Of a stretch of DNA of 64,000 bases, positions 1,043 through 33,587 are shown in pieces. The translations under genes and the position numbers were made by a program. Within the stretch, counting starts at the first letter, position 1, and the number at the start of each line of letters is the position of its first letter. The notes under the pieces were generated by a model that saw only the letters and a list, made by a program, of their open reading frames with translations, had not been told where the DNA came from and ran no database searches. Source of the DNA: Amycolatopsis deserti. GTDB lineage: Bacteria > Actinomycetota > Actinomycetes > Mycobacteriales > Pseudonocardiaceae. The DNA is taken from assembly GCF_014653945.1 (NCBI RefSeq), contig NZ_BNAU01000004.1, forward strand, positions 496,001 to 560,000, read 5' to 3'.

Positions 1043-1836
1043 CGCAGGGCTCCTCGTCTTGTGAGGTGCGCGCTCCACGTGCTGCCGGCGATGATCAGCG
1101 CGGTGCCGAGCAGGAGGAGCGCGTTGCCGCTGCTGGTGGCGAACAGGACGTGGACCGGGTGGGCGCCCATGCCTTCGCCGAGCAGCAGCCCGAATCCGGG
1201 TAGGGCGGCGAGGACCATCGCGCTCGCGCGGGGACCGGACATCGCTGCCTCCGCCTGGCTGGTGAACCTCAGCTCCGCGACGATGTCCCGACGCACCGCG
1301 TCGAGCAGGTCGGCCAGTGGGAGGCCATGCCGTTGGCTCAGCGACCACGCCCGCACCAGTCGCGCCCGGGCCGCGGACAACGGCTCGGCCGTCGGGACCG
1401 TTGCCAGCGTTTCCGCGACGTTCCCGCCGAGGCGCGCGGCACCGGCCACCGCGTCGAGGATCTCCGCGACCGGGCGGGTTGCGTCGGCCGCGGCGGACTC
1501 GGCGGCCAGTGCGGGTGGGGCGCCGGCGCGGAGGTCCACCACCATCGCGTGCAGCGCCTCAGCCATCGCGCGCCGTATCGCCAGGCCGGACTTCGATCGC
1601 CGGCGTGCGTGCCAGTGGCGCCAGCCGGCCCAGCCCAGCAGGGCGCCTGCCGCCCACACCATCGGCGGCATGACGAAAAGCAGTGGCACCAGCCCGAGGG
1701 CGAAAGCCTTCCGCGGCTTCGGCATGCCGCGGCGCCGCACCGACGGAGCGAGCGCGCGCAGCCGGACGACCGAGCCCCTCACCGGAGGCCAGCACAAGGC
1801 AGCCGCGGCAGCGCAGGCCAGAGACTGGGTCAGCAC
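1039..1836 (-). CDS. tadB: TadB, type II secretion F-family membrane protein
   Basis: Partner platform protein of TadC, 265 residues with the start used here. N-terminal hydrophobic segments (LTQSLACAAAAALCW and LGLVPLLFVMPPMVWAAGALLG) are followed by the helical T2SSF domain (about residues 95-210) and two C-terminal membrane helices ending near LLLLGTALIIAG. The GTG at 1836 is preferred over longer alternatives because GGAGG sits upstream and the codon overlaps the tadA stop (GTGCTGA), the same coupling used throughout the operon. It is expected to move prepilin out of the membrane using TadA ATP hydrolysis. Confidence 0.9.
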   Translation of the reverse strand: MLTQSLACAAAAALCWPPVRGSVVRLRALAPSVRRRGMPKPRKAFALGLVPLLFVMPPMVWAAGALLGWAGWRHWHARRRSKSGLAIRRAMAEALHAMVVDLRAGAPPALAAESAAADATRPVAEILDAVAGAARLGGNVAETLATVPTAEPLSAARARLVRAWSLSQRHGLPLADLLDAVRRDIVAELRFTSQAEAAMSGPRASAMVLAALPGFGLLLGEGMGAHPVHVLFATSSGNALLLLGTALIIAGSTWSAHLTRRGALR

Positions 1837-2993
1837 GGCCCGCCTCCGTGGGACAGCAATGCGGAGAACAGCACCCGCCGCTTGGTCCACCCGCCGTCCT
1901 TCCAAACGGGAAGCACGCGTACATCGCCGTTGTCGCTCCGGCTCAGCACACCGACCTCGGCCAGCTCCCGTTGTCCCGACGCGGACCGGCGCATGTGGAG
2001 CACGACCTGAACCGCGGCGGCGAGCTGGCTGTGCAGGGCGGAGCGGGACAGACCACCCAGCGCGGCAAGCGCTTCCAGGCGGGCGGGCACCTCCGCCGTG
2101 GAGTTGGCGTGCAGCGTTCCGGCGCTGCCGTCATGACCGGTGTTCAACGCATTGAGGAGCTCACACACTTCGTGGCCACGCACCTCACCGACCACGAGCC
2201 GGTCGGGCCGCATCCGCAACGCCTGCCGCACCAGGTCCCGCAGGCTGACTTCGCCGGCGCCCTCGACGTTCGGCGGCCGCGCGGTCAGCCGCACGAACTG
2301 CGGGTGCGCGGGCTGGAGTTCGGCCGCGTCCTCGACACACACGATCCGTTCGCCCGGGGACACCGCCCCGAGCATCGCCGCGAGCAGGGTGCTCTTGCCC
2401 GCCCCGGTGCCGCCGGTGACGAGGAACGCCAGCCGGGCGGCGACCACCGACTCCACCAGCTCCGCACCCTCGGCCCCGAACGTGCCCAGCTCTCGCAACG
2501 CGGCCAGGTCATGCACGGCGGGACGAAGGATCCGCAGCGACACGCACGTCCCGTCCGCCGCGATCGGGGGCAGCACGGCGTGCAGGCGGACGCGGCCGTG
2601 CGGCCCGAGCCCCGGAAGCCAGCCGTCGACGTAGGGCTGGGCGTCGTCGAGCCGCCGCCCGGCGGCCAGCGCGAGCCGCTGCGCGAGACGGCGCACCGAC
2701 TCCTCGCCGGAGAAGTGGACGTCGACGCGGCGCAACCCGGTCGAGCCGTCGACCCACACCTCGTGCGGGCCGGTGACCAGCACATCGGTGACGCCGGGCA
2801 GGGCGAGCAGCGGTTCCAGTGGACCAGCGCCGGCCAGCTCCTGCCGGACCAGCCGCAGGGCTTCGAGCAGTTCCGTGTGCCCGATCGGACGTCCGGCCTC
2901 GGCGCGGACGGCGTCCGCCACCGTCACCGGGTCCATGCCGGCACCGGCACCCGCCAGCCGATGACGGACCCGTTCGACCAGCTCGGTGTTCAC
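1830..2993 (-). CDS. tadA: TadA, pilus assembly ATPase (CpaF family)
   Basis: Secretion ATPase of the Tad pilus, 387 residues, a typical actinobacterial length. The N-terminal domain (1-160) is followed by the ATPase core: Walker A GGTGAGKST (194-202), an Asp box VEDAAEL (220-226), Walker B RLVVGEVRG (265-273) and a His box GHDGSAGTLHANS (286-298). It powers pilin extrusion and probably forms a cytoplasmic hexamer. The GTG start overlaps the ssd stop as GTGA, and its own stop overlaps tadB. The order ssd-tadA-tadB-tadC-pilin matches M. tuberculosis Rv3660c-Rv3656c. Confidence 0.95.
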   Translation of the reverse strand: MNTELVERVRHRLAGAGAGMDPVTVADAVRAEAGRPIGHTELLEALRLVRQELAGAGPLEPLLALPGVTDVLVTGPHEVWVDGSTGLRRVDVHFSGEESVRRLAQRLALAAGRRLDDAQPYVDGWLPGLGPHGRVRLHAVLPPIAADGTCVSLRILRPAVHDLAALRELGTFGAEGAELVESVVAARLAFLVTGGTGAGKSTLLAAMLGAVSPGERIVCVEDAAELQPAHPQFVRLTARPPNVEGAGEVSLRDLVRQALRMRPDRLVVGEVRGHEVCELLNALNTGHDGSAGTLHANSTAEVPARLEALAALGGLSRSALHSQLAAAVQVVLHMRRSASGQRELAEVGVLSRSDNGDVRVLPVWKDGGWTKRRVLFSALLSHGGGPC

Positions 2994-4063
2994 GCCGCCA
3001 GCACCTGCTTCGGCTGGGTCTGCGCCAGGATCAGCCGCGCGGTCTCCAGCAGCGCACCGCCCGGCCGCGGGTTGAAGTTGCCCCGTTCGACTTCCCGGTC
3101 CAGCTGGCGCTCGGCCGCCATGGAGGTGAGCAGCGGCAGCCCGACCGCCCCGGCCGCGACGCCGGGCTCGAGGTCGCCCGGCGCCGGTCCGCGCACGACG
3201 AGCCGGACGCGGCCGGCCGGATCACCGAGCTGCTTCACCACCCGCCGGGCGGCCAGGCAGGCCCGCATCTCCGCCGGGATCACCACGACCACCAGGTCCG
3301 CTCGCGCGATGACCGCCAGGCCCGGTCCGTCGAGGTGGCGCGGCAGATCGCACACCACCGTCCGCCCGGCCCGGCGCCCGGCCTCGATCACCGCAGCCAC
3401 GCCCTGCCCGGTCGGCCCGTCACCGTTGCGGTGGCAGGACAGGAACGGCAACCGCGCACCGCGGTACCGGAACTCGGGCAGTGACTTCAGCAGCGCGGGC
3501 ATCGACAGCCGCCCGGCTCCGGGCCGCAGCTCGGGCCAGCGGAGCCCCTCGGTGTTCTCGGCGCCGAGCAACGCGTCGATGCCGCCGGCCAGCGGATCGC
3601 AGTCCACCAGCAGTCCGCCGGGATCGGTGCGGCACGCGGCCAGCGCGGTGGCCGCCGCCAGGACGGACGCCCCGGCACCGCCGCGGCCGCCGAGCACGCC
3701 GATGATCCGCCCGCCCGGCAGCCCCGGCCCGTCGACGACGTCGGCGAGTGCGGCGGCCAGCGTCGTCTCGTCGTCCGGCAGCGACACGACACCCTCGACA
3801 CCGGCCCGGAAAGCTCGTTGCCAGGTACGGGAATCCGGCGCGCCCTTGGTGACGAGCAGGACGCCCGGACGCCGTGGCAGCTCGACGTCACCGTCGACGG
3901 CTTGCTCGTCGACCAGCACCAGCGGCGCGTCCGGCCAGCGCGGCCGCGCGGCGAGCAGGTCGGGTTCGCGCTGGGTCTCGCAGCCCACGGCTGCGGCGAC
4001 GCGCAGGATTTCGTCGAGCATGACTTCGTCGTGGGCGACGACGAGCGGTCGAGCGTGGTCCAT
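2990..4063 (-). CDS. ssd: Ssd, septum-site-determining / TadZ-CpaE-like protein
   Basis: MinD/ParA-superfamily protein heading the tad operon, about 357 residues, homologous to M. tuberculosis Ssd (Rv3660c). The N-terminal third resembles a receiver-like domain (DHARPLVVAHDEVMLDEIL onward). The ATPase-like domain begins near IIGVLGGRGGAGAS, a deviant Walker A in which the expected P-loop Lys is not in its usual place, followed by DLPRHLDGPG and PAEMRACLAARRV. TadZ/CpaE proteins place the pilus machine, and mycobacterial Ssd has been linked to septum formation; both roles are inferred here. The ATG at 4063 has GGGGG upstream; an extension to 4156 has no better signal. The first gene of its operon, it faces a regulatory region holding two DnaA-box sequences. 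Confidence 0.88.
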   Translation of the reverse strand: MDHARPLVVAHDEVMLDEILRVAAAVGCETQREPDLLAARPRWPDAPLVLVDEQAVDGDVELPRRPGVLLVTKGAPDSRTWQRAFRAGVEGVVSLPDDETTLAAALADVVDGPGLPGGRIIGVLGGRGGAGASVLAAATALAACRTDPGGLLVDCDPLAGGIDALLGAENTEGLRWPELRPGAGRLSMPALLKSLPEFRYRGARLPFLSCHRNGDGPTGQGVAAVIEAGRRAGRTVVCDLPRHLDGPGLAVIARADLVVVVIPAEMRACLAARRVVKQLGDPAGRVRLVVRGPAPGDLEPGVAAGAVGLPLLTSMAAERQLDREVERGNFNPRPGGALLETARLILAQTQPKQVLAA

Positions 4064-4507
4064 GACGGCCCCCAGGAGTGATCGGTGATTGACCTGACTC
4101 CACGGTCGTGCTCGCGCCGTGCCGCGACAAGGAGCTCCGGCGGCGCCTGTGGACAACTGGGGTCATGTGGACAACTCGCGCCCGGATCGGCTCGGGCGAG
4201 CGGAATCGTCGGTGCGCTGTGGCAGGATCCGCGCCCGCGCGCGGAGAAAGGGGCGACCCCCGCCAGGGGGGAGGGGCGGGGGTCGCCGAGGGTTCAGCCC
4301 CGGGGGGTTGGACTGAACCGCCGGTGGGAACACCGGATGCGCTCCACTGTAACTCCGGGAACCGGCCCGGAACTCCTCCCGCGGCACCCACAATTCGGTA
4401 ACGGCCCAGGCAATCGATTTCCCGCGCCGGCAACGAATTTCCGACCGGACGACACCATTGGTGGTCACCTCACCGCCCGCCGGACGGCCTGCTCCTATCC
4501 TGAAGCC
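4064..4507. other. Intergenic region with two strong hairpins and DnaA boxes
   Basis: 444 bp between the divergent ssd and HAD phosphatase genes, with no convincing gene. It holds two tandem TGTGGACAA boxes (4149-4174), a hairpin with 13-bp perfect arms (4252-4264 and 4275-4287), then a 7-bp hairpin GGTTCAG/CTGAACC (4291-4319). The hairpins lie upstream of both genes, so they are not ordinary 3' terminators; attenuation, a leader structure or a small transcript are all possible. Confidence 0.6.
4149..4174 (-). promoter_or_regulatory. Tandem pair of DnaA-box sequences
   Basis: TGTGGACAA occurs at 4149-4157 and again at 4166-4174, same orientation, 17-bp period; on the minus strand each reads TTGTCCACA, the usual high-GC actinobacterial DnaA box. 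The pair sits about 90 bp upstream of the ssd start. Chance occurrence of two exact boxes this close is unlikely, but function is inference. Confidence 0.5.
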
Positions 4508-5350
4508 GTGGCAGAACCTCCCAGCTCGCCGCCGAGCGAACAGCCCGCCGCGACCGGAACCGGTGTCGCGGCCTTCTTCGACCTGGACAAGACGATCATC
4601 GCGTCCTCCAGCGCGCTGGCCTTCAGCAAGCCGCTGCTGCGCGAGGGGCTGATCAGCAAGCGGGCGGCGCTGAAGAGCGCGTACGCGCAGTTGGTCTTCT
4701 CGCTCTCCGGCGCGGACGAGGACCGGACCGAGCGGATGCGCGCCGAGATCTCCGCGTTGTGCACGGGCTGGGACGTCGCCCAGGTGCGGGCGATCGTGAA
4801 CGAGACGCTGCACGACATCGTCGACCCGCTCGTCTACGCCGAGGCCGCCGAGCTGATCGCGTGGCACCAGTCGGAGGGCCACGACGTGATCGTGCTCTCG
4901 GCCGCAGGCGACGAGGTGGTGACCCCGATCGCGGCGATGCTCGGCGCGACCGGCAGCGTCGCGACGAGAATGGGCGTGGTGGACGGCCGCTATTCCGGCG
5001 AAATCGCTTTCTACTGCTACGGCGAACAAAAAGCGGTAGCCGCGAAACAATTGGCCGCGGAAAACGGGTACGACCTCGCCGCGTGTTATGCCTATTCCGA
5101 TTCCAGCACGGACGTCCCACTGCTGGAGACGGTCGGGAAGCCGCACGCGGTGAACCCGGACCGGCTGCTCCGCCGGACCGCGCTCGAGCGCGGCTGGCCG
5201 GTGCTGGAGTTCAGCAAGCCGGTCTCGCTGCGGAGCCGCTTCCCGGCGCCGACACCGGCGACTCTGGCGGTCGGCCTGGGCCTCGGGGCGGTCGCCGCCG
5301 CGGGCGTGACGTGGTACGGGCTGACGCGCAAACGCCGTGGCGGAGCATAG
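4508..5350 (+). CDS. HAD superfamily IB phosphatase (Rv3661-like)
   Basis: Haloacid-dehalogenase family IB phosphatase, 280 residues. Motif I is FFDLDKTI near residue 22 (DxDxT with the nucleophile Asp), motif II is probably VIVLSAA, and the acidic motif is YSDSSTDVPLL. The C-terminal tail (VGLGLGAVAAAGVTWYGLT then basic RKRRGG) looks like a single membrane anchor. The substrate is unknown; relatives of SerB and CicA act on small phosphomonoesters. The GTG at 4508 is chosen because the fold begins soon after it; TATCCT about 8 nt upstream suggests a leaderless transcript. The homologous gene Rv3661 also sits beside ssd and just before an Ms1-type RNA, matching this layout. Confidence 0.85.
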   Translation: MAEPPSSPPSEQPAATGTGVAAFFDLDKTIIASSSALAFSKPLLREGLISKRAALKSAYAQLVFSLSGADEDRTERMRAEISALCTGWDVAQVRAIVNETLHDIVDPLVYAEAAELIAWHQSEGHDVIVLSAAGDEVVTPIAAMLGATGSVATRMGVVDGRYSGEIAFYCYGEQKAVAAKQLAAENGYDLAACYAYSDSSTDVPLLETVGKPHAVNPDRLLRRTALERGWPVLEFSKPVSLRSRFPAPTPATLAVGLGLGAVAAAGVTWYGLTRKRRGGA

Positions 5351-5418: not shown

Positions 5419-5447
5419 TTGAAGTGACGACGGTCACTGGGTACAAA
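5419..5447 (+). promoter_or_regulatory. Promoter with embedded Crp-type palindrome
   Basis: TTGAAG (5419-5424), a 17-bp spacer and TACAAA (5442-5447) form a plausible sigma-70-type promoter driving the RNA at 5454-5697. The spacer contains AGTGACGACGGTCACT, whose GTGA-N6-TCAC core (5424-5437) matches the Crp/GlxR consensus. A site between -35 and -10 would be expected to repress. The -10 lacks the terminal T, so the promoter call is moderate. Confidence 0.45.
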
Positions 5448-5453
5448 GTGAAG

Positions 5454-5697
5454 TGCGGACGTTGTTCGGCCAAGGATGAGACGAAGAGAAGTCTCGTTCC
5501 TCCCCGAAGACCTCCGTGCGCGGACTCCGGGCACCCACGCGCAGCGCGCCGCGGGAGGCTTGTCGTCGAGGGACTGCGTACCGGGACGCCGGACGCCGAG
5601 TCCCCGTGGGTACGACATGAGTTGCAGCTTGGTCACCCGAGCGGTCCGCGCGGGCGGGCGCCGCTAGCGATGTCGCTGGCGGCGCCCGCACATTTTT
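5454..5697 (+). ncRNA. Candidate Ms1 (MTS2823-like) 6S-type RNA
   Basis: A roughly 244-nt unit with its own promoter and a strong terminator but no convincing protein, lying directly downstream of the Rv3661-like phosphatase. In mycobacteria this place is occupied by MTS2823/Ms1, an abundant RNA that binds core RNA polymerase. Internal folds include GAGAC/GTCTC (5478-5495) and a stem pairing the GTACCGGGAC region near 5580 with GTCCCCGTGGGTAC near 5608. The family assignment rests on synteny plus transcript architecture; I cannot align it here. A leader for nagZ is less likely because the terminator intervenes. Confidence 0.6.
5656..5697 (+). terminator. Intrinsic terminator of the Ms1-like RNA
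   Basis: Arms 5656-5669 and 5674-5687 pair over 14 bp with one G-U and an ATGT loop, followed by GCACATTTTT. It is one of the clearest rho-independent structures in the window. Confidence 0.85.
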
Positions 5698-5732
5698 ATG
5701 TCCAAGGGATTAGCCCGCCAGAGTGACAGCGG

Positions 5733-5855: not shown

Positions 5856-7640
5856 ATGCGCCGGAGGAATCATGTGCTTGCCGCGATCGTCGTCGGTGTT
5901 CTCGGCGTGAGCGCGGTCAGCGCGGCCTCCGCCGCACCCGGCGGACGGCAGGAGGGCTGGGCCGAGCAGACGCTGCGGCGGATGTCGCTCGAGGAGAAGG
6001 TGGGGCAGCTCTTCGTCGCCGACGTCTGGGGCAAGTCCGCCGACCAGGCCGACGAGGGCAACCGCAAGAAGTACGGGGTGGACACGCCCGCGGAGGTCGT
6101 CCAGCGGTTCCACCCGGGCGGCGTCATCTACTTCAACAACTCCGGCACCGACAACGTGGACGACCCGGCGCAGGTCGCGCGCTTCTCGAACGGACTGCAG
6201 CGAGCCGCGCTCGCCTCGGGCGCGAAGGTCCCGTTGATCGTCTCGACGGACCAGGAGGGCGGCCGGGTCACCCGCATCGCCGCGCCGGCCACGGAGTACC
6301 CCTCGAACATGGCCGTCGGCGCCGGTCGCAGCGCCGAAGACGCGCGGACGCTGGCCACCGTGAACGGTCACGAGCTGCGGGCGATGGGCATCAACCAGGA
6401 CTTCGCGCCGGACGCGGACGTCAACTCCAACCCGCTCAACCCGGTCATCGGCTCCAGGTCGTTCTCGGCCGATCCGGCGCTGACCAGCGAGCTGGTGGCA
6501 GCCGAGGTCGACGGCTACCAGAACTCCGGGCCGGCGACGGAGACCGTCTCCGCCGCGGCCAAGCACTTCCCCGGCCACGGTGACGCCGCCACGGACAGCC
6601 ACACCGGGCTGCCCGTCATCAACCGGACCGCGGACCAGTGGCGGCAGATCGACCTGCCGCCGTTCCGGGCGGCGATCGACGCGGGCACCGACGTGATCAT
6701 GTCCGCGCACATCACCGTGCCCAGCCTCGACCCCTCCGGCGAGCCCGCGACGCTGTCCAAGCCGATCCTGACCGGGATCCTGCGCGACGAGCTGCACTAC
6801 GACGGTGTGGTCGTCACCGACTCGCTGCAGATGGCCGGGGTGCGGCAGATGCACAGCGACGCGGAGATCCCCGTGCTGGCGCTGGAGGCCGGGGTGGACC
6901 AGATGCTGATGCCGCCGGACCTGGCGCTGGCGATCAACAGCGTGCTCGACGCGGTCAAGAACGGGCGGCTGACCGAAGACCGGATCGACCAGAGCGTGCT
7001 GCGGATCCTCAAGCTCAAGGACAAGCGCGGCATCGTCGCCAGCCCCCTGGTCAACACGCGAGCCGTGAAGCAGGTCGTCGGCAGCGCGGCCAACCGCGAG
7101 AAGGTCCAGGCCCTCACCGACCGCACCACCACCGTGCTCCGCAACGACGCCGGACTGCTCCCCCTGCGCAACCCCGGGAAGGTCCTGGTGACCGGCTGGA
7201 ACAACCCGAACTACCCCGGCTACCCGGCGGAGCCGGTGCGGGCGCTGGCCGAACGGCTCGGCGGCACGGCCGTCTCGACGGGTGCCAAGCCGACCGCGGC
7301 CAAGATCGCCGAGGCGGTCGCGGCGGCGGGCGAAGCGGACACGGTCGTCGTCCTGACCAACGGCCTGCGCAGCGACACCGGCCAGGGTGACCTCGTGCGT
7401 GAACTGCTCGCGACCGGGAAACCGGTGATCGCCGTGAGCATCCAGGAGCCGTACGACCCGGGCTACGCCGACGTACCGACCTGGGTGGCGACGTACGACT
7501 GGCGGGATGTGACGATGGGTTCGCTGGCCAAGGTGCTCAAGGGTGAGATCGCACCACAGGGCAAGCTGCCCGTCGACGTCCCGGCGGGCGACGACGCCGG
7601 CCAGATCCGCTACCCCTTCGGCACAGGACTGACATGGTGA
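5856..7640 (+). CDS. nagZ: Secreted beta-N-acetylglucosaminidase, GH3 (NagZ/YbbD-like)
   Basis: Glycoside hydrolase family 3 enzyme predicted to cut GlcNAc from peptidoglycan fragments, 594 residues. A signal peptide (residues 1-27, ending SAASAAPGG) exports it, as in Bacillus YbbD and unlike cytoplasmic E. coli NagZ. Key features are DQEGGRV (132-138), the NagZ His-Asp catalytic loop KHFPGHGDAATDSH (236-249) and the nucleophile region TDSLQMAG with Asp322. A second domain (about 400-594) matches the GH3 C-terminal alpha/beta domain. The ATG at 5856 follows AGGGGAGG; an upstream in-frame ATG lacks a ribosome site. The last bases overlap namZ, starting a five-gene MurNAc recycling cluster. Confidence 0.93.
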   Translation: MRRRNHVLAAIVVGVLGVSAVSAASAAPGGRQEGWAEQTLRRMSLEEKVGQLFVADVWGKSADQADEGNRKKYGVDTPAEVVQRFHPGGVIYFNNSGTDNVDDPAQVARFSNGLQRAALASGAKVPLIVSTDQEGGRVTRIAAPATEYPSNMAVGAGRSAEDARTLATVNGHELRAMGINQDFAPDADVNSNPLNPVIGSRSFSADPALTSELVAAEVDGYQNSGPATETVSAAAKHFPGHGDAATDSHTGLPVINRTADQWRQIDLPPFRAAIDAGTDVIMSAHITVPSLDPSGEPATLSKPILTGILRDELHYDGVVVTDSLQMAGVRQMHSDAEIPVLALEAGVDQMLMPPDLALAINSVLDAVKNGRLTEDRIDQSVLRILKLKDKRGIVASPLVNTRAVKQVVGSAANREKVQALTDRTTTVLRNDAGLLPLRNPGKVLVTGWNNPNYPGYPAEPVRALAERLGGTAVSTGAKPTAAKIAEAVAAAGEADTVVVLTNGLRSDTGQGDLVRELLATGKPVIAVSIQEPYDPGYADVPTWVATYDWRDVTMGSLAKVLKGEIAPQGKLPVDVPAGDDAGQIRYPFGTGLTW

Positions 7641-8905
7641 GGCTCAACCGGCGCGGGTTCCTGGTCACCGGCGCCCTCGCGACACCCCTGCTGACCGGCG
7701 GGTCCGCTCTCGCGGAACCTGCGCCCGCGATCCGGTCCGGGGCGCGCGGACCGGTCGTCACCGGCGCCGACGCGCTCGCCCGGCGGGGCTGGCGCTCCCT
7801 GGCCGGGCGCAAGGTCGGGGTGCTGTCGAACCCGACGGGTGTGCTGGAGAACGGCGATCACATCGTCGACTCGATGATCGCCGCCGGTGTCCGGCCGGTC
7901 GCCGTGTTCGGGCCGGAGCACGGGTTCCGGGGCAGCGCCCAGGCCGGCGGCTCGGAGGGCGACTACACGGATCCGCGCACCGGCATCCCGGTGTACGACG
8001 CGTACGGCGCGGACGCGGCGAAGCTGGCCGGGATGTTCACCAAGGCCGGTGTGGACACGGTGGTCTTCGACATCGCCGACGTCGGCGCCCGCTTCTACAC
8101 CTACATCTGGTCCATGTACACGGCGATGGTCGCGGCCGGCCGGACCGGGGCCGCCTTCGTCGTCCTCGACCGGCCGAACCCTATCGGCGGCAAGGCCTAC
8201 GGCCCGATGCTGCGCCCGGAGTTCGCCTCCGGTGTCGGGCTCAAACCGATCGTGCAGCAGCACGGCATGACCGTCGGCGAGCTGGCGAAGTACTTCGCCG
8301 CCGAGTTGCTGCCCGCCGAGGGTGTGCGGCTGGCCGACCTGCAGGTGGTGCAGGTCGAGGGCTGGCGCCGGGACACGTTCTTCGCCGGTACCGGGCTGAC
8401 CTGGACGCCGCCGAGTCCGAACATGCCCACCGCGGACACCGCGCTGGTCTACCCGGGCACGGGCATGTTCGAGGGCACGGTGTTCTCCGAGGGACGTGGC
8501 ACGACCCGGCCCTTCGAGATCATCGGCGCGCCCGGCATCGACTGGCGGTGGCGAGACGAGCTGACGGCGCTCGGGCTCGCGGGCGTGCGGTTCCGGGAGA
8601 CCTACTTCGTGCCGACGTTCAGCAAGTTCGTCAACCAGACCTGCGGCGGCGTGCAGGTGACAGTCACCGACCCGGCCGCGTTCGACGCCATCCGCACGGC
8701 GGTCGGGATGCTCGTGACGGCCAAGAAGCTGCACCCGGACATCTTCGGCTGGCGCGCGGACAACGGGATCGACAAGCTGACCGGCTCCGACCGGGTGCGC
8801 ACGATGGTCGACCGCGGCGCCGGAGTGGACGAGATCGTCGGGTCCTGGCAGGCCGAGCTCGACGAGTTCACCGTCCGCCGCCGTCCCCACCTGCTCTACT
8901 GGTGA
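7634..8905 (+). CDS. namZ: Exo-beta-N-acetylmuramidase, GH171 (NamZ/YbbC, DUF1343)
   Basis: DUF1343 protein, 423 residues, whose Bacillus member NamZ removes MurNAc from the non-reducing end of peptidoglycan chains. The N-terminus has a twin-arginine signal (LNRRGFLVTG plus a hydrophobic run), so export by Tat is likely. Family landmarks are KVGVLSNPTGV, FGPEHGFRG, the catalytic-region segment FDIADVGARFYTYIW and VLDRPNPIGG. The ATG lies inside the end of nagZ (ATGGTGA overlap), indicating one transcript and coupled translation. NagZ and NamZ would act alternately on the glycan, releasing GlcNAc and MurNAc for uptake. Confidence 0.93.
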   Translation: MVRLNRRGFLVTGALATPLLTGGSALAEPAPAIRSGARGPVVTGADALARRGWRSLAGRKVGVLSNPTGVLENGDHIVDSMIAAGVRPVAVFGPEHGFRGSAQAGGSEGDYTDPRTGIPVYDAYGADAAKLAGMFTKAGVDTVVFDIADVGARFYTYIWSMYTAMVAAGRTGAAFVVLDRPNPIGGKAYGPMLRPEFASGVGLKPIVQQHGMTVGELAKYFAAELLPAEGVRLADLQVVQVEGWRRDTFFAGTGLTWTPPSPNMPTADTALVYPGTGMFEGTVFSEGRGTTRPFEIIGAPGIDWRWRDELTALGLAGVRFRETYFVPTFSKFVNQTCGGVQVTVTDPAAFDAIRTAVGMLVTAKKLHPDIFGWRADNGIDKLTGSDRVRTMVDRGAGVDEIVGSWQAELDEFTVRRRPHLLYW

Positions 8906-32844: not shown

Positions 32845-32912
32845 GCACGCAAGTGATCGGCGACACGCCCCGGTTCGCGGGAACACGGTCGCCACCGACG
32901 AGGAGGCACGAG

Positions 32913-33587
32913 GTGGACGAGACCCTGGCCCGGGCGGGCATCTTCCAGGGGGTGGAGCCGGCCGCGGCTGAGGCGCTCGCCCAGACCCTGGAAACCGTGG
33001 AGTTCCCGCGGGGTCATGTGATCTTCTCCGAGGGCGAGCCCGGCGACAAGCTGTACATCATCCTGTCCGGCAAGGTGAAGATCGGCCGCAAGTCGGCCGA
33101 CGGCCGGGAGAACCTGCTGTGGATCGCCGGCCCCTCGGACATGTTCGGCGAGCTGTCCATCTTCGACCCCGGCCCGCGCACCTCGACCGCGACGACGGTC
33201 ACCGAGGTGCGGGCGGTGTCGATGGACCGGCCGTCGCTGCGCAAGTGGATCGCGAACCGGCCGGAGATCGCCGAGCAGCTGCTGCGAGTCATCGCCCGCA
33301 GGCTGCGCCGGACGAACAACATGGTCGCCGAGCTGATCTTCACCGACGTCCCGGGCCGCGTGGCGCGGGCGCTGCTGCAGCTGGCGCAGCGGTTCGGCAG
33401 CCAGGAGGCGGGCATCCTGCGGGTCACGCACGACCTGACGCAGGAGGAGATCGCCCAGTACGTCGGCGCCTCGCGGGAGACCGTGAACAAGGCGCTGGCG
33501 GACTTCGCGCACCGCGGCTGGCTGCGGCTCGAGGGCAAGTCGGTGCTGATCCTGGACCCGGAGCGCCTGGCGCGCCGCGCCCGCTGA
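32913..33587 (+). CDS. crp: Crp-family cAMP receptor regulator
   Basis: Global regulator of 224 residues, the same length as M. tuberculosis Crp (Rv3676). The cyclic-nucleotide domain (about 10-130) has the phosphate-binding cassette [18 protein letters not shown]; a long dimerisation helix follows; the C-terminal winged helix contains [21 protein letters not shown]. The GTG at 32913 follows AGGAGG; the open frame extends to 32853 without a ribosome site. It should bind GTGA-N6-TCAC sites, one of which lies upstream of the Ms1-like RNA in this window. A strong terminator closes the gene. Confidence 0.96.

Follow-up and report, generated by a model that had tools for sequence, protein, structure and literature searches.

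Evidence for an Ms1-family small RNA gene in Amycolatopsis deserti with a CRP-type dyad in its promoter

The window, a stretch of 64,000 nucleotides from Amycolatopsis deserti, very probably carries an Ms1-family small RNA gene, and a CRP-type dyad lies between the -35 and -10 boxes of its promoter (Table 1). An Ms1-like RNA at 5454-5697 had been proposed in a sequence-only reading of this DNA. The covariance model of the family now places the gene end to end, and synteny, promoter, terminator and covariation agree with the assignment. The Ms1 RNA and its synteny are already known; the CRP-type dyad in the promoter is the part for which no precedent was found. Direct binding to RNA polymerase is known for few RNAs, of which Ms1 is one, and a conserved operator of the CRP type bears on what switches Ms1 on. 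It also offers an evolutionary contrast between clades that keep and clades that lose the operator.

Table 1. Coordinates of the features at the Ms1 locus and of the proposed regulator in the window
Feature	Position	Strand	Basis
TadA-type ATPase, left of ssd	1830..2993	-	TIGR03819
Septum site-determining protein Ssd (Rv3660c position)	2990..4063	-	TIGR03815, 302.7 bits against a cut-off of 154.45
6C RNA (RF01066)	4248..4322	-	76.9 bits against a gathering score of 47
HAD-IB hydrolase (Rv3661/MSMEG_6173 position)	4508..5350	+	TIGR01490, 202.5 bits against a cut-off of 98.3
-35 box TTGAAG of the Ms1 promoter	5419..5424	+	sequence; surroundings conserved
CRP-type dyad GTGA-N6-TCAC between -35 and -10	5424..5437	+	sequence and conservation
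-10 box TACAAA (mostly TA[CG]AA in relatives)	5442..5447	+	sequence, conserved in relatives
Ms1 RNA gene (RF02566), very probable, 243 nt	5455..5697	+	full-length covariance match, covariation; inferred start, set by model position 1 and by the distance to the promoter
Conserved 5' strand of the central core (GCACCCACGCG)	5531..5541	+	near-invariant in 32 related sequences
Conserved 3' strand of the core (GCA-GCTTGGTCACCC; GCACGCTTGG in most relatives)	5624..5638	+	alignment
Intrinsic terminator, 16-pair stem 5654-5689, TTTTT 5693-5697	5654..5697	+	terminator scan
GH3 beta-N-acetylhexosaminidase-type gene, right flank	5856..7640	+	PF00933, 297.8 bits
Crp (CRP/GlxR family), proposed dyad regulator	32853..33587	+	top HTH_Crp_2 match of the genome; 401.7 bits to PDB 3i54 by phmmer

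A covariance-model search, suggested with the sequence-only reading as a check, gave a full-length match. With E-values allowed in the Rfam search, RF02566 was aligned from model position 1 to 304 of 304 with 70.4 bits and an E-value of 8.1e-17, though the score is under the curated gathering score of 162, which is a database threshold and no biological feature. At the curated cut-offs only 6C and one tRNA were returned for the whole window, and Ms1 was not listed. Unlike RF02566, which is about 304 nt, the copy in the window has 243 nt, with a shorter apical arm. When 61 genomes (the window's own included) were searched, Ms1 was matched at E ≤ 0.01 in 28 and exceeded the cut-off in one, and the 14 controls gave no match; the filters of this genome-wide search lose weak matches. 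The match in the window is the sole one in its genome (7.74 Mb, 24 contigs). By a count of rows, 13 of the 19 genomes of the window's own genus were matched, and those without a match include two carriers of the promoter (G013 and G017).

Six Mycobacterium loci gave 226-310 bits and Rhodococcus koreensis was barely above the cut-off with 166.6, whereas 162 was reached by none of the 18 loci of one set, mostly Pseudonocardiales. The Ms1 promoter pattern is also present at five Nocardiaceae loci (L067, L080, L091, L101 and L106) that gave no match at the cut-off. The Rfam cut-off was considered as an argument against membership and was rejected, as 27 of the 28 matching genomes also fall below 162. 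Since relatives score equally low, the cut-off follows lineage, and we take the sub-threshold score as a limit of the seed of the Ms1 model that does not exclude the gene. The low scores show that a large lineage goes undetected at the present Ms1 cut-off.

The structure of the RNA is a long hairpin with an internal bubble, maintained by covariation. Folding of the strand 5450-5700 gave -140.9 kcal/mol compared to -113.0 ± 5.1 kcal/mol for shuffled sequences (z -5.5), and none of 200 shuffles was as low. The structural alignment was built on 32 sequences (the window's copy and 31 relatives), seven near-duplicates among the 39 extracted having been dropped; L037 (too short), L052 (no match) and L074 do not form part of it. 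Standard pairs occupied 95.2% of the cells of the consensus structure against 30-42% for slid partners (maximum 41.7%), a comparison in which the structure is favoured over its slid versions because it was predicted from the same alignment. Double-sided changes that preserve pairing were seen in 33 of 66 pairs, mostly in the 5' hairpin (helices 1 and 2), the outer stem (helix 3) and the terminator. None of 500 shuffles attained any of five structure measures. The central strands GCACCCACGCG and GC-GCTTGGT are almost unvarying in the 32 sequences. Other families of the class contributed 23 loci, and in 15 of these both core strands lie downstream of HAD. The window's copy lacks one base of the usual GCACGCTTGG, as do five aligned relatives. 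The earlier reading had described the unit as having no protein. Open frames do traverse 5454-5697, but relatives differ by indels whose lengths are not divisible by three, and this, together with the compensated changes in the stems, argues against coding.

The RNA is framed as a single-gene unit by a sigma-A-like promoter, with a spacer of 17 bases between the boxes, and an intrinsic terminator. A promoter and a strong terminator had both been claimed from the sequence, and both are present. The promoter is conserved in relatives; the terminator taken alone is weak evidence, since the terminator scan is expected to give 1.2 chance sites per 2 kb. The invariance of CTTG in the 77 promoters examined is imposed by the search pattern. 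A simple promoter scan did not return the Ms1 promoter, as only T is accepted there as the final base of the -10 box.

The gene order around the RNA was examined next to that of mycobacteria. The Rv3661-like neighbour noticed earlier is a HAD-IB hydrolase scoring above the TIGR01490 cut-off, and the proposed left flank of tad, ssd and HAD phosphatase was recovered in place, with the TadA-type ATPase, Ssd and the hydrolase in this order. Further tad-like frames seem to be present left of the ATPase. The HAD protein of the window is 97% identical to that of Amycolatopsis thermalba. Among 80 named loci, which were fetched by the HAD protein alone, the Ms1 promoter pattern was located within about 210 bases after the HAD match in 77; none was found by the search pattern in the other three (L096, L097 and L105), two of which are Geodermatophilaceae MAG contigs. 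The 6C RNA, on the minus strand, is one gene away from Ms1, as in mycobacteria, and it was above the cut-off in eight of the 18 mostly Pseudonocardiales loci in which Ms1 stayed below 162. B11 of M. tuberculosis is taken here to be 6C. In that species B11 is reported between Rv3660c and Rv3661, and MTS2823 between Rv3661 and Rv3662c (PMC3207917). The conserved 6C neighbour of Ms1 has been remarked on (PMC6582537).

On the right flank, 40 Pseudonocardiales-group loci were examined, and 32 of them have a GH3 motif downstream in the same orientation. The best NCBIfam match of the GH3 gene in the window, PRK05337 (169.4), is under its cut-off of 207. From 5856 to 8905 the GH3 glycosidase is followed by an overlapping gene for a NamZ-type exo-beta-N-acetylmuramidase (PF07075, PF20732), and the two are likely to be a peptidoglycan-recycling pair.

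The gene thus resembles Ms1, MTS2823 and scr3559 (RF02566) in its end-to-end covariance match, its core strands and its own promoter and terminator, and also in its place behind the HAD-IB gene, beyond which lie 6C and ssd. The claim that the find extends the synteny of the family to a Pseudonocardiaceae-type genome held for the shared locus and did not hold for its newness, as Amycolatopsis (in Table 4) is given with 26 other genera under Pseudonocardiaceae in the predictions of PMC9130861. That work (Vankova Hausnerova et al. 2022) predicted Ms1 in 824 species; the neighbours HAD hydrolase, CpaE and beta-acetylhexosaminidase were among the phrases it searched with.

The dyad in the promoter (GTGACGACGGTCAC) has the half-sites and the six-base gap of CRP/GlxR operators. 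It is a close variant of TGTGA-N6-TCACA, from which the outer bases differ: the candidate operator has arms AGTGA..TCACT, and the extended arms AGTGAC-N4-GTCACT cover 5423-5438. As 0.8 occurrences of the bare 14-base dyad are expected by chance in the window, conservation carries the argument. The combined pattern of promoter and dyad, CTTGNNGTGANNNNNNTCACNNNNTASAA, was found in 86 of 397 genomes of the order, with one site in each, and a reversed control pattern gave no match in the 397. By row count the matches were distributed over 50 of the 79 genomes of family f1, the window's own, taken as Pseudonocardiaceae, and 36 genomes of f8, with none in other families. Family f8 is taken as the broadly defined Mycobacteriaceae, since some of its HAD proteins are identical to those of named Mycobacterium. 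The sites lie just before independently located Ms1 (for example in G043 and G056), and six of the 36 f8 sites have the full CRP consensus. In a class-wide search the pattern was present in 13 of 246 genomes, namely the window's own and 12 of f8, and in none outside the order.

Conservation was concentrated in the arms. At 41 Pseudonocardiales-group loci (L064, a MAG named Actinomycetes bacterium, is counted with them) the information content was 1.82 and 1.88 bits in the arms and 0.85 bits in the six central bases; the contrast was weaker at 11 Nocardiaceae loci, with 1.57 and 1.31 bits in the arms and 0.93 in the centre. The left arm overlaps the -35 box by one base, and part of its conservation may be promoter constraint. 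The exact dyad was present at 34 of the 41 Pseudonocardiales-group loci, six of the 11 Nocardiaceae loci and one of 25 Mycobacterium loci. It is missing from many Ms1 loci, so Ms1 does not need it. Known Ms1 loci outside these groups mostly differ from the window in this respect, the dyad being upstream of the Ms1 core in one of 15 loci from other families. In that single case (L143, family f41), the Ms1 core is preceded by a similar promoter in which GTGA-N6-TCAC stands one base off its usual distance from CTTG. No exact GTGA-N6-TCAC was found at the 6C gene of the window.

To follow the dyad among mycobacteria, its state was compared with a HAD-protein tree of 56 loci, 53 of them Mycobacterium-group rows and three of the seven outgroup rows, in which L107 is not included and bootstrap is not fully settled. 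The trees comprise 30 of the 41 genomes of genus g26 (18 without the exact pattern and 12 of the 23 with it) and all named Mycobacterium loci but L097 and L104 (24 of 26). Thirteen Mycobacterium-group rows with both half-sites are scattered over several branches. One clade (support 100/96) holds 34 rows without a half-site and one with a half, and contains all of the tree's named Mycobacterium rows apart from L095, 22 in number. A separate clade of five Mycobacterium genomes (support 99/100) has the right half-site only. In the Mycobacterium clades the core boxes are retained and the arms lost. Judged by sequence comparison, the dyad is retained in most Pseudonocardiales and in part of the mycobacterial family, and has degenerated in two clades of Mycobacterium and some of the Nocardiaceae. 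The named species of the clade without half-sites are, we presume, slow growers. A simple slow-growth explanation was weakened by the second, five-genome clade with the right half only and by the five of 11 Nocardiaceae loci in which the exact dyad is missing; as a guess based on genome size, the five-genome clade may consist of rapid growers.

Crp was considered as the regulator. Its gene is 27 kb from the Ms1 locus, and the stretch around the recognition helix is identical in its best PDB match, 3i54, which we take to be the M. tuberculosis protein. An orthologue was found in all 15 genomes tested. In genus g26, three genomes with the exact dyad (G043, G070 and G123) have two Crp homologues and four dyad-less ones (G079, G088, G158 and G180) have one; the dyad-bearing G056 and G109, of other genera, also have one. 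The small RNA ncRv13660c is presumably 6C. For M. smegmatis Crp the consensus is given as TGTGA-N6-TCACA (PMC7739888), and in M. tuberculosis CRP binding near the start site goes with repression (PMC4117774). Three small RNAs with upstream CRP sites, ncRv13660c included, are described in the latter paper; Ms1 is not named among them in the parts of the paper drawn on here, which fits operator decay in that clade, M. tuberculosis itself being outside the loci read by name.

A mechanism may be proposed from these features. As in Mycobacterium smegmatis, M. tuberculosis and Streptomyces coelicolor, the RNA would accumulate as growth slows. By the same analogy it would bind core RNA polymerase without sigma factor, probably via the central bulged duplex, and keep a reserve of polymerase for regrowth. 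During growth, a CRP-cAMP dimer on GTGA-N6-TCAC would block the promoter; the centre of the dyad is about 24 bases upstream of the inferred start, where bound Crp would be in the way of polymerase. A fall in CRP-cAMP would then release Ms1. We regard it as about evenly balanced whether the dyad is such a CRP operator repressing Ms1. Our judgement is likewise divided in the middle on the evolutionary account, in which cAMP-CRP would have repressed Ms1 directly in the common ancestor shared by Pseudonocardiaceae and Mycobacteriaceae, and loss of the operator in the clade of presumed slow growers, with half-loss in another, would have uncoupled Ms1 from cAMP. If true, the uncoupling might have to do with the high abundance of the Ms1 homologue seen in growing M. 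tuberculosis.

Expression and binding of Ms1 have been described in mycobacteria (PMC4191392, PMC11077062, PMC3207917). In the portions of the 2014 Ms1 paper used here (PMC4191392), the sigma factor is unnamed, an unknown regulator is not excluded, and for the M. tuberculosis locus LexA is mentioned and CRP is not. A literature search of open-licence papers, mostly at listing level, turned up no description of Ms1 being controlled by CRP; one paper, in the part available, mentions Ms1 and CRP separately (PMC12709188).

Two other explanations of the locus concern the RNA itself. The segment might be a long leader of the GH3 gene and no free RNA, the outcome under which the sequence-only reading would have failed. 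The two are on the same strand and the T run ends 158 bases from the GH3 start codon, but the terminator is strong, the full-length Ms1 match includes it, and the family is reported as a separate transcript in Mycobacterium and Streptomyces; a read-through leader is extremely improbable. Very improbable, too, is a true 6S RNA acting on the housekeeping sigma holoenzyme. The long hairpin with a central bulge and the stationary-phase logic are shared with 6S RNA (ssrS, bsrA), and the Streptomyces relative has been called 6S-like. No 6S family was among the Rfam matches at the locus, at curated cut-offs or with E-values, and RIP data from three actinobacteria put the Ms1 class on core polymerase (PMC11077062). 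The CoRP RNA of Corynebacterium is similarly an abundant polymerase-bound RNA of a related lineage; it differs in its length of about 500 nt and in having close homologs reported within its genus only (PMC11077062).

If the RNA is Ms1, as preferred here, the dyad could still be bound by another dimeric regulator, BldD or a second CRP/FNR paralogue, or by none. The former is a minority possibility that we take seriously. BldD has half-sites AGTGA...TCACC, a BldD-like protein was found in four tested genomes of the window's family, and further HTH_Crp_2 proteins are present in the window's genome. In a PF21179 search, however, BldD_C was detected in five of 15 genomes and was absent from all ten f8 genomes tested, five of which have the exact dyad (G043, G070, G123, G056 and G109); it is present in G435 (9.2 Mb, another family), which has no promoter-dyad match. 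BldD is thus disfavoured as the reader of the dyad, and the Crp orthologue present in all 15 genomes together with the six exact consensus sites argues against another regulator in general. LexA is also improbable, as the SOS box does not fit the dyad. It is rather unlikely that the dyad merely reflects a spacer favoured by the housekeeping sigma factor, as promoter context to which no regulator binds. Its position exactly between the core boxes, with one base common to the -35, would agree with this, as would the bases flanking the arms, which are complementary in only 18 of 41 Pseudonocardiales-group and two of 11 Nocardiaceae loci. Against it, variation falls on the six central bases and hardly touches the four-base arms, and the Mycobacterium clades hold the core boxes without the arms.

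A second Ms1-like gene was seen in one genome (G020), at 1501-1761 of locus L005 on contig C46, with 95.6 bits; the copy at the HAD locus of the same genome (contig C20) has 57.9 bits. No HAD homologue was found on contig C46, and the promoter of L005 is without the dyad. The L005 gene is either a paralogue or a binning error.
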